A DNA stretch of 64,000 nt. It comes from Microbispora hainanensis. Its GTDB lineage: Bacteria > Actinomycetota > Actinomycetes > Streptosporangiales > Streptosporangiaceae. The notes below the pieces were generated by a model that ran no database searches, was not told the DNA's origin, and worked only from the letters and a program-made list of their open reading frames with translations. The DNA lies in assembly GCF_006874475.1 (NCBI RefSeq), contig NZ_VIRM01000022.1, forward strand, positions 62,001-126,000. Reading direction: 5' to 3'. The translations under genes were made by a program, and so were the position numbers. Of the stretch, positions 28,463 to 56,898 are shown piece after piece (the stretch's first letter is position 1; the number at the start of each line of letters is the position of its first letter).

Positions 28463-28486
28463 TACCCGCGTGTGCTGGAGGCTGCC

Positions 28487-29383
28487 GTGAACTCGGCCCT
28501 GAAGGAGCTGCTGGACCTGCTCGACCTCGAACCGATCGAGCTCGACATCTTCCGGGGACGCAGCCCGGAGGAGCGCATCCAGCGGGTCTTCGGCGGCCAG
28601 GTGGCGGCGCAGGCGCTCGTGGCGGCCGGCCGTACGGTGCCGTCCGACCGGATGGTCCACTCGCTGCACGCCTACTTCATCCGGCCGGGGGACCCGGCCG
28701 TCCCGATCGTCTACAACGTCGAGCGGGTGCGCGACGGGCGGTCGTTCACCACCCGGCGCATCACGGCGATCCAGCACGGCAAGGCGATCTTCTCGATGTC
28801 GGCGTCGTTCCACATCGAGGAGCCGGGCGTGAGCCACCAGGCCGTGCGCATGCCGCAGGTGCCGGACCCCGAGACGCTGCCGACCTTCCAGGAGCGGATG
28901 CTCGACGTCGTGGGCGACGAGCCGGGCTGGCGCGAGCTGCTGGCCAAGCCGCGACCGGTGGACGCGCGCTACGTGAACGCGCTGACGTGGGAGGCGGCCC
29001 ACGACCCCGCCCTGGTCACCCCGGAGAACAACGTCTGGTTCCGCTACGACGCCGACCTGCCCGACGACCCGCTGCTGCACGTCGTGCTCGCGGCCTACGC
29101 CAGCGACTTCACGCTCGTCGACACCGTGCTGCTGGCCCACGGCCTGGCCTGGGGGTCCTCGGCGGTGTCCGGCGCGTCGCTCGACCACGCAATGTGGTTC
29201 CACCGGCCCTTCCGGGCCGACGAATGGCTGCTGTACGCCCAGGAGTCGCCCTGGTCGGGATCGGCGCGCGGGCTCGCCCGCGGGCAGATGTTCACCGCCG
29301 CCGGGGAACTGGCCGTGTCCGTGGTCCAGGAGTGCCTTATCCGGGTGTCGCCGGCGTTGCACTCCGATGTCACGAAGTCGTGA
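28487..29383 (+). CDS. tesB: Acyl-CoA thioesterase II
   Basis: A 298-residue double-hotdog thioesterase. N-terminal hotdog: RVFGGQVAAQALVAA, VHSLHAYFIRPGD, RVRDGRSFTTRRI. C-terminal hotdog: AYASDFTLVDTVL (catalytic Asp/Thr region), ASLDHAMWFHRPFRADEW, SGSARGLARGQMF. It cleaves medium and long-chain acyl-CoAs in the cytosol. The GTG at 28487 is preferred because GGAGG (28477-28481) stands five bases before it; GTG 28472 lacks one. The stop lies 13 bases before the WhiB7-type promoter. Confidence 0.92.
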   Translation: MNSALKELLDLLDLEPIELDIFRGRSPEERIQRVFGGQVAAQALVAAGRTVPSDRMVHSLHAYFIRPGDPAVPIVYNVERVRDGRSFTTRRITAIQHGKAIFSMSASFHIEEPGVSHQAVRMPQVPDPETLPTFQERMLDVVGDEPGWRELLAKPRPVDARYVNALTWEAAHDPALVTPENNVWFRYDADLPDDPLLHVVLAAYASDFTLVDTVLLAHGLAWGSSAVSGASLDHAMWFHRPFRADEWLLYAQESPWSGSARGLARGQMFTAAGELAVSVVQECLIRVSPALHSDVTKS

Positions 29384-29396
29384 AAATCGCAGGTAG

Positions 29397-29433
29397 AAAA
29401 TAGGTTGCCCACCCTGCCGCAGCGGTTTAGGGT
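29397..29433 (+). promoter_or_regulatory. WhiB7-activated-type promoter for the whiB7 transcript
   Basis: AAAAT (29397-29401) stands three bases ahead of a -35 TTGCCC (29405-29410), then a 17-bp spacer and -10 TAGGGT (29428-29433). An AT-rich block just upstream of -35 is where the WhiB7 AT-hook docks beside sigma A, so autoactivation is expected. The start is predicted near 29440, giving a leader of almost 490 nt. Confidence 0.75.
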
Positions 29434-29495
29434 CTTGGACAAGTCAGCCGGACGCTTCGGTCCGGCGAGATCGCACTGAAATGGAGGTGAGTCCA

Positions 29496-29804
29496 GTGAG
29501 GAACATTACGACGTCCCGCACGCTGTGGCTCGCCTCCGCATGCCCGGCCGCCATTGTCATGCCGAAACTGCGGCGTGGCGAGGCCGCCTCTGCCCTGGCT
29601 CCGGTGACCGGAGCCGCGGGCTCGGCCGCCTTCGGCGCGTTCGCCGGCCTGGCCGGTCGCCGCAGCAGCCTGGCCAGCCACCGCAACCCCGTCCAGCGAC
29701 CGGTTTACGTGAACCGGCCGATGGGCGATGAGCAGATCCGCACCGCCGCTCGCGGAGGTGCGCAGGGTCCGCACGATGCCTGGAGAGGACCAGTCATACC
29801 CTGA
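29496..29804 (+). CDS. Leader open reading frame upstream of whiB7 (102 codons)
   Basis: The GTG at 29496 has a strong GGAGGTGA ribosome binding site (29483-29490) and lies ~56 nt into the predicted whiB7 transcript. The peptide (MRNITTSRTLWLASACP..., later GLAGRRSSLASHRNP and a final GPVIP) has no recognisable domain and is Ala-, Gly- and Arg-rich. Its stop (29802-29804) is inside a hairpin 17 nt before the terminator stem. In other actinobacteria whiB7/wblC leaders carry an upstream frame whose slowed translation by antibiotics switches off a terminator, so I read this as that sensor rather than a protein with its own job. A functional small protein is not excluded. Confidence 0.7.
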   Translation: MRNITTSRTLWLASACPAAIVMPKLRRGEAASALAPVTGAAGSAAFGAFAGLAGRRSSLASHRNPVQRPVYVNRPMGDEQIRTAARGGAQGPHDAWRGPVIP

Positions 29805-29832
29805 CTAGGTCTCCATCTCCGGGCCGCGGATC
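29735..29832 (+). promoter_or_regulatory. Competing leader hairpins of whiB7 (anti-terminator candidates)
   Basis: TGGAGA (29781-29786) plus AGTCA (29792-29796) can pair with TGACT (29802-29806) plus TCTCCA (29810-29815), a hairpin that contains the leader-peptide stop. Separately, GATCCGC (29735-29741) in the leader frame can pair with GCGGATC (29826-29832), the left arm of the terminator. A ribosome stalled upstream or parked at the stop would favour different structures. Pairings were found by eye; energies were not computed. Confidence 0.55.
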
Positions 29833-29862
29833 CCACCCAGGATCCGCGGCCTTCTTGTTTGT
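29822..29862 (+). terminator. Intrinsic terminator (attenuator) in front of whiB7
   Basis: Perfect 12-bp stem: GGCCGCGGATCC (29822-29833), 6-nt loop, GGATCCGCGGCC (29840-29851), then the T-rich TTCTTGTTTGT (29852-29862). It lies between the leader frame and whiB7 and would stop transcription unless antitermination occurs. Confidence 0.9.
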
Positions 29863-29926
29863 CGGCCACGAATCCACACCCCACAACGAGGACAACCAGA
29901 CCAAACCATTCAAAGAGGTGACGCAG

Positions 29927-30190
29927 ATGGCGGCCCCGGTCATGGACCTGATCGAAGCCGAAATCCCCTGTCGTACCGAACCCGACCTGTGGTTCGCCGA
30001 GTCTCCCGAGGACGTGGAGTTCGCCAAGGCGCTCTGCGGCGGCTGCCCGATCCAGAAGGCCTGCCTGGCCCGCGCGCTGGAGCGCGAGGAGCCGTGGGGC
30101 GTCTGGGGCGGGGAGCTCATCCTGAGGGGGGTCGTCGTACCCCGCAAGCGCCCCCGTGGGCGCCCGCGTAAGTCCCCTGTCGCCGCCTGA
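29927..30190 (+). CDS. whiB7: WhiB7 transcriptional activator of intrinsic antibiotic resistance
   Basis: An 87-residue WhiB-like iron-sulfur protein. Cluster ligands Cys 15, 37, 40 and 46 (C-x21-CxxC-x5-C), the GVWGG turn (PWGVWGGE, residues 56-63), and a C-terminal AT-hook RKRPRGRPRK (73-82), which distinguishes WhiB7/WblC from other WhiB proteins. It binds the sigma A region 4 and activates promoters with AT-rich -35 flanks in response to ribosome-targeting drugs and redox change. The ATG at 29927 follows GAGGTG by six bases. Expression depends on its own promoter at 29397 and the attenuator at 29822. Synteny with uvrD2 supports the identity. Confidence 0.95.
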   Translation: MAAPVMDLIEAEIPCRTEPDLWFAESPEDVEFAKALCGGCPIQKACLARALEREEPWGVWGGELILRGVVVPRKRPRGRPRKSPVAA

Positions 30191-30228: not shown

Positions 30229-30411
30229 ATGAGCATCTCCCCGACCACCGCCCTGTATCTGCATCAAGAACTGGCGTACGAGCGAATACGAACGCTCCAC
30301 CGCGAAGCTGCGGAGGAGCGGCTGGCCGGCCGGATCAGGAGCGTGCAGAGGGCACGCCGGCAGGCCGAGCGCGCGTCCCGGCGGCTGAGCTCCGCGCTGT
30401 CGCGCATGTGA
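30229..30411 (+). CDS. Small basic helical protein downstream of whiB7, 60 aa
   Basis: A 60-residue protein, ATG at 30229 after GGAAGGA. Sequence from residue ~14 is a single amphipathic, arginine-rich helix (YERIRTLHREAAEERLAGR, RSVQRARRQAERASRR), pI very high, no Cys, no membrane segment. It lies 38 bp after whiB7 and ahead of a strong terminator, so it is co-transcribed with whiB7 and shares the antibiotic-inducible control. I do not recognise a family; nucleic-acid or ribosome binding would fit the composition but is inference. Confidence 0.7.
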   Translation: MSISPTTALYLHQELAYERIRTLHREAAEERLAGRIRSVQRARRQAERASRRLSSALSRM

Positions 30412-43905: not shown

Positions 43906-43982
43906 CGCGGGGTGGAGCAGCTCGGTAGCTCGCTGGGCTCATAACCCAGAGGTCGCAGGTTCAAATCCTGTCCCCGCTACCA
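43906..43982 (+). tRNA. Initiator tRNA-Met (CAT), copy 1
   Basis: A 77-nt cloverleaf. The acceptor stem begins with an unpaired C1 against T72, as in actinomycete initiator tRNA. The anticodon stem CTGGG/CCCAG holds the three consecutive G-C pairs required for initiation, with the anticodon loop CTCATAA. The T arm is GCAGG TTCAAAT CCTGT, and CCA is encoded. It has its own promoter and terminator. Confidence 0.97.
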
Positions 43983-43985
43983 CGT

Positions 43986-44030
43986 CAGAGGCCCGGTCTC
44001 CGGAAACGGAGACCGGGCCTCTGGTCTTTT
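43986..44030 (+). terminator. Terminator after initiator tRNA copy 1
   Basis: Perfect 16-bp stem (43986-44001 with 44008-44023) around a 6-nt loop, followed by GTCTTTT. Confidence 0.92.
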
Positions 44031-44055
44031 CCGAGGCCTCTGGTCTTTTCCGAGG
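44018..44055 (+). repeat. 19-bp tandem duplication of the terminator's distal arm and T-run
   Basis: Two identical 19-bp units, 44018-44036 and 44037-44055, each containing CCTCTGGTCTTTTCCGAGG. The second unit repeats the right arm end and the T-run, giving a possible alternative pairing for the same left arm. Confidence 0.9.
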
Positions 44056-44128
44056 ATGGCCCGCCTGGTCGCTCACCCCGGGCGAGCGCCTGACGCGGTC
44101 GGCGACGGGGCCGGTCACCACAAACGAT

Positions 44129-44158
44129 TTGGCACCCGTTCCCAACCGGGGGTAAGCT
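44129..44158 (+). promoter_or_regulatory. Promoter of the second initiator tRNA
   Basis: TTGGCA (44129-44134) and TAAGCT (44153-44158) with an 18-bp spacer, about 14 bases before the tRNA. Confidence 0.65.
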
Positions 44159-44171
44159 TTGAACACAACGA

Positions 44172-44248
44172 CGCGGGGTGGAGCAGTTCGGTAGCTCGCT
44201 GGGCTCATAACCCAGAGGTCGCAGGTTCAAATCCTGTCCCCGCTACCA
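44172..44248 (+). tRNA. Initiator tRNA-Met (CAT), copy 2
   Basis: A 77-nt near-duplicate of copy 1 with one visible change in the D loop (GCAGTTCGG against GCAGCTCGG). All initiator features are retained, including C1:T72 and three G-C pairs next to the anticodon loop. It is 189 bp after copy 1 and has a separate promoter and terminator. Confidence 0.97.
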
Positions 44249-55342: not shown

Positions 55343-56801
55343 CCTTCTCAGGACGCCCGCGGGCCGCCGGCTGACGCTCGTCGCCGGGCCCTGGGACGCC
55401 CGGGAGGTCGGCAGCGTCGTCCTCGTCGACGAGATGCGCGAGCTGACCACGGCGGCCCCCGGCGCGCTGGCGATCCTGTCGCGGCACGCCATGCGGTCGT
55501 GCGACGTGCTCGACGCGCTGCGCCTGGCCGGGCGCGGCGGCCTCGCCGGGATCGTGCTGCCCGGCCCTTCGGGCACGACACGGGAGATCGTGGAGCTGGC
55601 CAGGCGGGAGCGGGTCGCGCTGCTCGCCGGCGCCTCCGACCACTCGCTGTCGGACACCGTGCTCGGCCTCAGCGCGGCCGTACGCGCCGATCCCGGGCTG
55701 CTGCTGCGCCGTACGCGTGAGGCGATCGACGGCATCGGCGCGATGGAGGGCGCGGGGGAGGAGGACATCCTGCGCGCGGCATCCGCCTCCGTCGGCGTCT
55801 CGTACGTCGTCGCCGGCCTGGCCGACCCGGGGGCCAACGCGACGGTGATCCGGGTCGGCGGCCGGCCGGACGGCTACGTGTGCTGGGAGGGCGAGGACCC
55901 CGCGGCGGCGATCGTCGCCCAGGTCGTCGCGACCACGCTCGGCCGGGTGCGGGCGGCGGCGCGGGAGGCGGAGGCGGCTCGCGAGCGCGCGCTGCTGGCC
56001 CTGCTCGGCGCCAAGGACACCCGGACCGCCGCCCGCCGCGCCCGGCACGAGGGCGTCCCGGTGGACGGCTGGCACGTCGCGGTCTTCCTGCGCGACCCCG
56101 GTGGCGACGCGACCCCGGAGGCGGCGGATCCGGTGCTCCGCGAGGCGCGGGGGACCGCCGCCGCGTGGCCCGGCGCGCTCGGTTTCGGCGAGACGGCCGA
56201 GCTGTCGGCGCCGCCGCTGGTCACCCGGTGGCAGGACGGCGTGCTCGTGCTCCTCACCGCCGACGAGCGGACGACGCTCAACCTCCCGAATCCCCAGCGG
56301 CCGTCGAAACAGTGGCCGTCGGCGCTGCGCTCGTCGACACCGGGCCGGTCGTCCGCGGTGGGAGCGGGGCTCGGCACCTGCCAGGAGGGGCCGGACGGGC
56401 TGCGCCGTACGGCCGCGCAGGCACGGGCGGCCGCCGCTCGCGCCACGGCCGGGGAGGTGGTGCGGTTCGACCGGCTCGGGGTGCACGCGCTCCTCGCGGA
56501 GCTGAGCGGCAGCGACAGCGCGCTGGTGGCCGCCAGGGACATGCTCGCCCCGCTGGAACGCCTCGGGGCGCTCAGCGTCCACGCGGTGCCCACGCTGAAG
56601 GCCTACCTGGACAGCTGGGGCTCCCGCACCAGGGCGGCGGAGCTGCTCACCCTGCACCCCAACGCGGTGGCCCACCGGATCAGGCGCATCGCCGAGGCGC
56701 TCGACGCCGACCTGTCCGACCCGCAGACCCGCTTCGCGCTCCAGCTCGCCTGCCACGTGGTGCTCGACCACGACTGTTTCGCGGTGACTGTTTCGCGGTG
56801 A
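55326..56801 (+). CDS. PucR family transcriptional regulator (second)
   Basis: A 491-residue regulator, less like the first: N-terminal substrate-sensing region (VGSVVLVDEMRELTTAAPGALAILS), middle with ARERALLALLGAKDTRTAARRA, and the C-terminal PucR HTH LDSWGSRTRAAELLTLHPNAVAHRIRRIAEAL. It is embedded between the importer and the HyuA/HyuB pair, with its start inside the DppF-like gene, so it is co-expressed with the importer. The final codons (CFAVTVSR) are contributed by the 14-bp tandem repeat, in which the stop codon itself lies. Confidence 0.88.
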   Translation: MRRVSDLLRTPAGRRLTLVAGPWDAREVGSVVLVDEMRELTTAAPGALAILSRHAMRSCDVLDALRLAGRGGLAGIVLPGPSGTTREIVELARRERVALLAGASDHSLSDTVLGLSAAVRADPGLLLRRTREAIDGIGAMEGAGEEDILRAASASVGVSYVVAGLADPGANATVIRVGGRPDGYVCWEGEDPAAAIVAQVVATTLGRVRAAAREAEAARERALLALLGAKDTRTAARRARHEGVPVDGWHVAVFLRDPGGDATPEAADPVLREARGTAAAWPGALGFGETAELSAPPLVTRWQDGVLVLLTADERTTLNLPNPQRPSKQWPSALRSSTPGRSSAVGAGLGTCQEGPDGLRRTAAQARAAAARATAGEVVRFDRLGVHALLAELSGSDSALVAARDMLAPLERLGALSVHAVPTLKAYLDSWGSRTRAAELLTLHPNAVAHRIRRIAEALDADLSDPQTRFALQLACHVVLDHDCFAVTVSR

Positions 56802-56823
56802 CTGTTTCGCGGTGACTGTTTCG
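56772..56823 (+). repeat. 14-bp tandem repeat, 3.7 copies, across the pucR stop
   Basis: The unit GACTGTTTCGCGGT occurs at 56772-56785, 56786-56799, 56800-56813 and partly 56814-56823. Fourteen is not a multiple of three, so copy-number change would alter the pucR C-terminus. The array ends 75 bp before the HyuA start. Confidence 0.92.
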
Positions 56824-56898
56824 GGGGGACAACAACGGTGATCTCGTCGTCGTGAGGGCACATCGACGCGGCGTCCGGCCGCATCTACGTTGCCTGGC

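Follow-up and report, generated by a model that had tools for sequence, protein, structure and literature searches.

Upstream of whiB7 in Microbispora hainanensis lie a UvrD-like helicase gene and a tesB-like acyl-CoA thioesterase gene (28472-29383 of the window, meaning the whole 64,000-nucleotide stretch that was analysed). Between the thioesterase gene and whiB7 come, in order, a promoter, a Shine-Dalgarno (SD) sequence with an upstream open reading frame (uORF; together 29483-29804) and an intrinsic terminator (29822-29861 with its U-rich tract); coordinates are given in Table 1. The whiB7 product matches Pfam Whib at 53.1 bits, ends in a basic tail that we take to be an AT-hook, and is 100% identical over 87 residues to the Microbispora corallina copy (L038). 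It is the best of five matches in its own 8.7 Mb genome, the runner-up being 39% identical. Right behind whiB7 is a 60-residue reading frame (30229-30411) with a possible ribosome-binding site and no Pfam or NCBIfam match. Elsewhere in the window, the roughly 190 bp that separate two tRNA-Met(CAT) genes (43906-44248) hold 2.1 copies of a perfect 19-bp tandem repeat, and a perfect 14-bp tandem repeat, GACTGTTTCGCGGT, is present in 3.7 copies at 56772-56830. A known Rfam family for the leader was considered and rejected: matches at the gathering threshold across the whole window were two tRNAs only, with two weak sub-threshold matches in the leader.

Table 1. Features of the whiB7 leader and gene (window coordinates)
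Feature	Position	Strand	Details
WhiB7-type promoter, putatively autoregulated	29396..29433	+	GAAAAT (AAAAT 29397-29401), 3 bases, -35 TTGCCC (29405-29410), 17 bp, -10 TAGGGT (29428-29433)
Short 5'-end hairpin	29447..29466	+	GCCGGAC/GTCCGGC; a few bases past the expected start
uORF SD and 5' arm of the predicted SD-sequestering helix	29483..29493	+	GGAGGTGAGTC; SD GGAGGTG 29483-29489
uORF	29496..29804	+	GTG start, TGA stop (29802-29804), 102 codons
Anti-SD arm	29527..29537	+	GGCTCGCCTCC; codons 11-14 (W-L-A-S); predicted to close on 29483-29493
Anti-terminator H1, 5' arm	29765..29772	+	GGGTCCGC; predicted to pair with 29826-29833
Anti-terminator H2/H3, nested hairpin around the uORF stop	29778..29824	+	29778-29796 with 29802-29824, predicted fold
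Intrinsic terminator stem	29822..29851	+	29822-29833/29840-29851; 5' arm common to H1/H2
U-rich tract of the terminator	29852..29861	+
whiB7	29927..30190	+	87 aa, WhiB domain, basic RPRGRPRK tail

The rule for WblC promoters, as given in part of PMC7157823, is GAAAWY placed 3 nt upstream of the -35 element. The window promoter fits this rule, and the AAAAT three bases before the -35 that a preliminary description of this DNA had pointed out is borne out by the sequence; AAAAT/TTGC/TAGGGT recurs in 73 of the 96 leaders that have a promoter call. Transcription would start near 29440, presumably under activation by WhiB7 itself. As for the short 5'-end hairpin, which is conserved, one of its pairs is changed on both sides in 3 of 13 Nonomuraea leaders and another in 1, and a stem of at least 6 bp lies near the start in 81 of the 96 leaders with a promoter call (a count of any stem, without a shuffled control). 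This hairpin may perhaps serve RNA stability. Both it and the hairpin over the SD had been overlooked in the preliminary description.

Conservation was followed in two samples, of 80 and 100 loci, that share species. The first set has 33 leaders, 32 of them from the 80 WhiB7 loci and one from the window; L036, which comes from a more distant MAG and whose terminator differs, was excluded. The larger set consists of 100 loci, mostly higher-scoring ones, drawn from the 158 of 200 sampled family genomes in which the attenuator tail was matched (2 of these had two matches); a uORF was called in 98 of the 100 and 2 were without a call. The label "Streptosporangiaceae-like" used below is our own. 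Among the 48 remaining WhiB7 loci, a sequence-only model (E up to 1, the weakest counted being 0.041) placed the tail upstream of the WhiB7 match in 39 and gave no match in 9 distant WhiB7-like loci (L039, L041, L047, L048, L050, L054, L062, L066, L067); of these, L050 and L054 carry upstream a hairpin resembling a terminator, and the sequence of L062 is incomplete. The order promoter, uORF, terminator recurs in the relatives. Further attenuator copies in the window's own genome were considered and rejected: there is one strong tail match, and the next best has an E of 0.026.

Terminator and anti-terminator

The perfect 12-bp terminator stem of the preliminary description is confirmed in the sequence, where it is followed by TTCTTGTTTG, and 99.1% of its cells are paired in the alignment of relatives. 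Judged from the alignments, the conserved anti-terminator is the H1 pairing, which encloses the nested stop hairpin and would lock 11 of the 12 bases of the terminator 5' arm. The stop hairpin was correctly recognised before, but it belongs to the anti-terminator and is not a separate element. The earlier version, with that hairpin standing apart and the anti-terminator formed by 29735-29741 and 29826-29832, is hardly credible: the match is real (seven perfect Watson-Crick pairs in the window, with the arm kept in 7 of 9 other leaders of the same genus), but the arm is absent from most leaders (the window alone has it in the set of 33, and its 7 occurrences among 98 all come from the window's genus, against 30 of 33 and 88 of 98 for the H1 core), and its predicted pairing was 0.00-0.03 in ensembles containing the arm, with one exception of 0.28 (ribosome at codon 90 and RNA ending at 29834; the codon-80 states lacked the arm). 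That arm was rejected on both counts, and the H1 arm 30 nt downstream takes its place. The three leaders of the first set without the H1 core are Herbidospora, with CGTCCGC.

Covariation of H1-H3 was scored in an alignment of the window, 87 of the 98 rows and 16 of 39 more distant tail-matched loci, the last picked for long matches; 10 near-duplicates (by judgement) and L152 were omitted. Over 101 distinct sequences 89.6% of cells are paired, compared with 27-50% in slid controls. Changes on both sides affect 10 of 23 pairs and 54 cells, against 5.0 and 15.3 in shuffles, none of 500 of which scored as high; slid versions of the same alignment also hold 3-7 double-changed pairs and 5-38 cells. 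The 33-leader alignment is likewise well paired (92.1% of cells, against 24-46% when slid), but here the tally of double-changed pairs does not stand out from shuffles (214 of 500 reached it), and additional pair types were less numerous than in shuffles (500 of 500). H1 alone had no double-changed pair in either column alignment, only one-sided compatible changes, a pattern that would follow if the terminator, too, constrains its 3' arm.

Other families offer a comparison of a different kind. Their terminator arm differs (GGAACCC, GGACCC) and, by eye, the 5' partner differs with it (L053, L072, L074); these folds are in a different register and so stand outside the column counts. In 21 of 22 leaders from other groups, RNA ahead of the second terminator arm pairs 7 or more of the 13 bases in the first arm, mostly, by eye, on the same nested plan; in L043 and L053 the arm is held in an open multiloop that does not enclose the stop. 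In the energies of these 22 folds a 95-base stretch is set against the bare terminator, so the two sides are not directly comparable. What covariation fixes is an anti-terminator recurring in many actinomycetes.

The folding energies of the two states, which the preliminary description had proposed to compare, come to -42.0 kcal/mol for the anti-terminator and -28.2 for the terminator, and the anti-terminator drops to -21.2 with a ribosome at the stop (assumed footprint 29784-29816). Across 98 tails the median energies are -38.2 and -28.6, and 88 of the 98 hold at least 60% of the terminator arm. At equilibrium, with RNA extending to 29852, the terminator is favoured in every modelled state (0.72-0.99), and read-through must therefore be kinetic, as in other attenuators: H1-H3 is completed first, its last arm ending at 29833 and the second arm of the terminator at 29851. 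Under simple ribosome masks at equilibrium, H1 probability did not tell a ribosome at the stop from an empty RNA (with RNA to 29842 and only the stop masked, H1 stays at 0.90, the value obtained with no ribosome at all); it was the energies that separated the two states.

A predicted hairpin over the Shine-Dalgarno sequence

The second conserved structure would hide the start of the uORF: the SD and the bases beside it are predicted to pair over 11 bp with an arm inside the frame. In most relatives the match lies about 29-50 nt past the start. Against base shuffles it reaches p<0.05 in 25 of the 33 leaders. At p<=0.05 it is present in 72 of the 86 leaders labelled Streptosporangiaceae-like and in 2 of the 12 remaining leaders of the family sample. 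The alignment of the helix took in 83 of the 98 uORF rows in addition to the window and omitted L152 (uncertain uORF), L153 (anti-SD displaced), L182 (SD in another register, pairing by eye) and 12 rows with tail scores close to the lowest, where the helix is mostly absent; this cut was chosen after the uORF calls on the 98 rows had been inspected. In 82 distinct sequences 95.7% of cells are paired, against 40-51% when slid. Four of the 11 pairs, and 9 cells, are double-changed, a score that 0 of 500 shuffles equalled (slid versions: 0-4 pairs, 0-6 cells); the 33-leader set, which overlaps with this one, points the same way (3 pairs, 3 cells). It is very improbable that the match is a by-product of a conserved W-L-A-S peptide motif: W is kept in 27 and L in 28 of 33 peptides, but W-G, L-F, A-T, A-V and S-F changes keep the helix in most rows (S-A and S-V, in 4 of 33 rows, break one pair), and neither the compensatory changes nor the poor pairing of the slid controls fits a purely coding origin.

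Predicted accessibility of the SD falls as the RNA grows: it is 0.42-0.66 up to an RNA end of 29532, 0.13 at 29536 and 0.00 from 29538. The probability that the SD is unpaired is below 0.1 in 59 of 86 relatives; the comparison groups give 0 of 12 and 4 of 22. Codon-permuted controls lend the hairpin modest support from predicted energy (z of -2.0 for the window, with 4% of 500 permutations as low; z below -2 in 22 of 86). Outside the clade an SD:anti-SD match at p<0.05 occurs in 6 of 29 uORFs, at scattered positions, and accessibility is low in the 4 of 22 just mentioned; for these reasons the helix is claimed for the clade alone. Other families are mostly without it, and by this comparison it is a clade-specific addition.

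The bases after the anti-SD arm resemble the consensus at which polymerase pauses, a suggestive likeness: in 81 distinct sequences a pyrimidine (99%) and then G (95%) occupy the would-be -1/+1 positions, with G in 75% at -10. That this polymerase uses such a signal would be a guess.

Just past the anti-SD arm the hexamer GCAYGC (29538-29543) is strongly kept; in 23 of 33 leaders it comes with GCA, a rare codon that makes up 1% of the Ala codons in three genes nearby.

The leader frame and its peptide

The leader frame with its strong ribosome binding site was rightly described before, and all 33 leaders of the first set have an SD and an open frame, of 72-112 codons, with the stop 13-21 nt upstream of the terminator and the SD similarly placed. 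In a search of 39 distant loci, a frame of 52-198 codons preceded by a clear SD was called in 29 and none in 10. The preliminary description had called the peptide long for a sensor, and Arg-rich late in the frame in a way that might tell which drugs are sensed. Neither property holds up: given the spans in relatives, 102 codons is usual for a whiB7 uORF, and Arg is evenly spread, with 4 residues in each third of the frame, so the late-Arg reading was rejected. With length usual, Arg even and constraint weak, there is no sign that the peptide distinguishes drugs. The uORF product was also compared with known proteins, and a match was rejected (no Pfam or NCBIfam hit at E 0.001).

The peptide appears to be weakly constrained in sequence. 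By a pooled, crude Nei-Gojobori estimate whose sequence pairs are not independent, dN/dS in the middle of the uORF is 0.67 for 13 Nonomuraea and 1.21 for 5 Microbispora-like leaders, and at its N-terminus 0.87 and 1.65, compared with 0.11 and 0.05 for whiB7. The well-conserved stretches of the 33-row peptide alignment are the helix-encoding WLAS and GP-PWR-PV. Codon choice at H1 and H2 inside the frame is unusual: Gly at H1 is GGT in all 29 of the 33 rows that have Gly (in three genes nearby GGT makes up 5% of the Gly codons), and Arg at H2 is AGG or AGA in all 27 rows that have Arg (together 10% in the same genes), with L116 and L142 of the larger set using CGG. Such rare-codon use is, as read from the alignment, an RNA-level constraint.

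These observations bear on the idea of an arrest peptide or an amino-acid-specific attenuator, in which particular residues would stall the ribosome under certain drugs or on shortage of one amino acid. The frame is indeed kept open and ends in the conserved GP-PWR-PV motif, and 20 of its 102 residues are Ala, in a peptide that by eye has no run of three equal residues; alanine starvation reportedly involves whiB7 in mycobacteria (according to the title of a cited paper). This idea is nonetheless improbable: besides the weak constraint and the even spread of Arg, the conserved C-terminal codons coincide with H1/H2, and there Arg is replaced by Gly with pairing kept, or by Ser with one outer pair lost. 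No conserved RYR or R-X-R-type arrest motif was found in the 33-row peptide alignment. We argue that the residues of the leader peptide matter little.

Proposed mechanism and known attenuators

Intrinsic resistance to many unrelated ribosome inhibitors depends on WhiB7/WblC, all of them having to be sensed through a single leader. The leader in the window is very probably a uORF-controlled transcription attenuator of the whiB7/wblC kind: whiB7 downstream, an AT-box promoter, a uORF with an SD, a terminator and a (predicted) competing anti-terminator are all present. Control by slowed uORF translation is, at the level of sequence, well supported by anatomy and covariation. From the computed parts, their conservation, pairings and energy ranking, we infer the following course of events. 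RNA polymerase would start near 29440 at a promoter activated by WhiB7 itself, and a ribosome would load at 29483-29498 and translate behind it. A ribosome keeping pace would cover the end of the frame and the stop (about 29750-29816) as 29826-29833 emerges; with the stop covered, H1-H2-H3 would be blocked, the 12-bp terminator would form and whiB7 would stay off. If, under a drug, the ribosome lagged or stalled within about the first 84 codons, a position that by geometry would leave the H1 5' arm free, or if it never loaded, H1-H2-H3 would fold first and lock the terminator 5' arm, giving read-through into whiB7. The uORF would thus be a yardstick of translation speed and not a specific arrest peptide.

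The hairpin over the SD could add a second point of control. Since it would close once codon 14 has been transcribed, probably only an early-loading ribosome is counted, and whiB7 would be turned on by slow initiation as well; the helix would then be a gate. In the resulting arrangement of two checkpoints, which we put forward tentatively and as no better than possible, a self-closing SD hairpin and a pause-like site would admit one prompt ribosome, and the anti-terminator would read its speed over some 100 weakly constrained codons. A simpler account, which comes fairly near an even chance, is that the hairpin merely lowers uORF translation and so sets basal whiB7 expression, with no gate and no selection of a first ribosome. 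A strong hairpin over an SD generally lowers initiation, and the pause-like signature beside this one is suggestive only; against the simpler account, the SD is near-consensus across the alignment, and closure needs about 50 nt more RNA, an arrangement that would favour early loading. Should the two checkpoints be real, whiB7 would answer both slow initiation and slow elongation without a drug-specific peptide, the conserved SD hairpin adding initiation sensing to the same leader.

Among the papers searched, none joins whiB7, uORF and Streptosporangium, and the matches to whiB7 with "anti-Shine-Dalgarno" concern other matters, judged by title. Attenuation of whiB7/wblC through slowed translation is established, as the preliminary description had said; the uORF-mediated form is described for Streptomyces and mycobacteria (in parts of PMC11550727, PMC12421871, PMC13236596 and PMC13393426; Lee, Lee and Roe 2022 is cited for it in the first, second and fourth), with early evidence for the whiB7 leader in part of PMC4128351. 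In what these sources describe, the attenuators of Streptomyces coelicolor and mycobacteria share with the window an autoregulated promoter, a uORF with an SD, a terminator, an anti-terminator and whiB7 downstream, and part of H1-H3 may already be drawn in print. The window differs in its clade-specific SD-sequestering hairpin and in having its pairings defined by covariation; its leader is the known whiB7 attenuator type plus that addition.

Two other systems are close in part. The ilvB attenuators of Corynebacterium and Mycobacterium tuberculosis, as portrayed in parts of PMC11109978 and PMC13236596, also have a uORF, an intrinsic terminator and a stop-bound ribosome that blocks the anti-terminator, but their frame is short and carries branched-chain amino-acid regulatory codons, and no such run is seen in the window uORF. 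The leader of tlrB (yxjB) in Bacillus subtilis likewise serves drug-inducible resistance, and its translation must start before an SD-sequestering structure closes, pausing letting the leader ribosome load in time (part of PMC6851288). There, according to the same source, a 9-residue peptide with an RYR arrest motif is read and the hairpin hides the SD of tlrB itself, whereas in the window the frame has about 100 codons and no conserved arrest motif, and the hairpin would hide the uORF's own SD. The tlrB-like feature present in the window is SD sequestration, predicted to set in as transcription proceeds and to be complete from 29538 (accessibility 0.00), together with the covariation of its helix.
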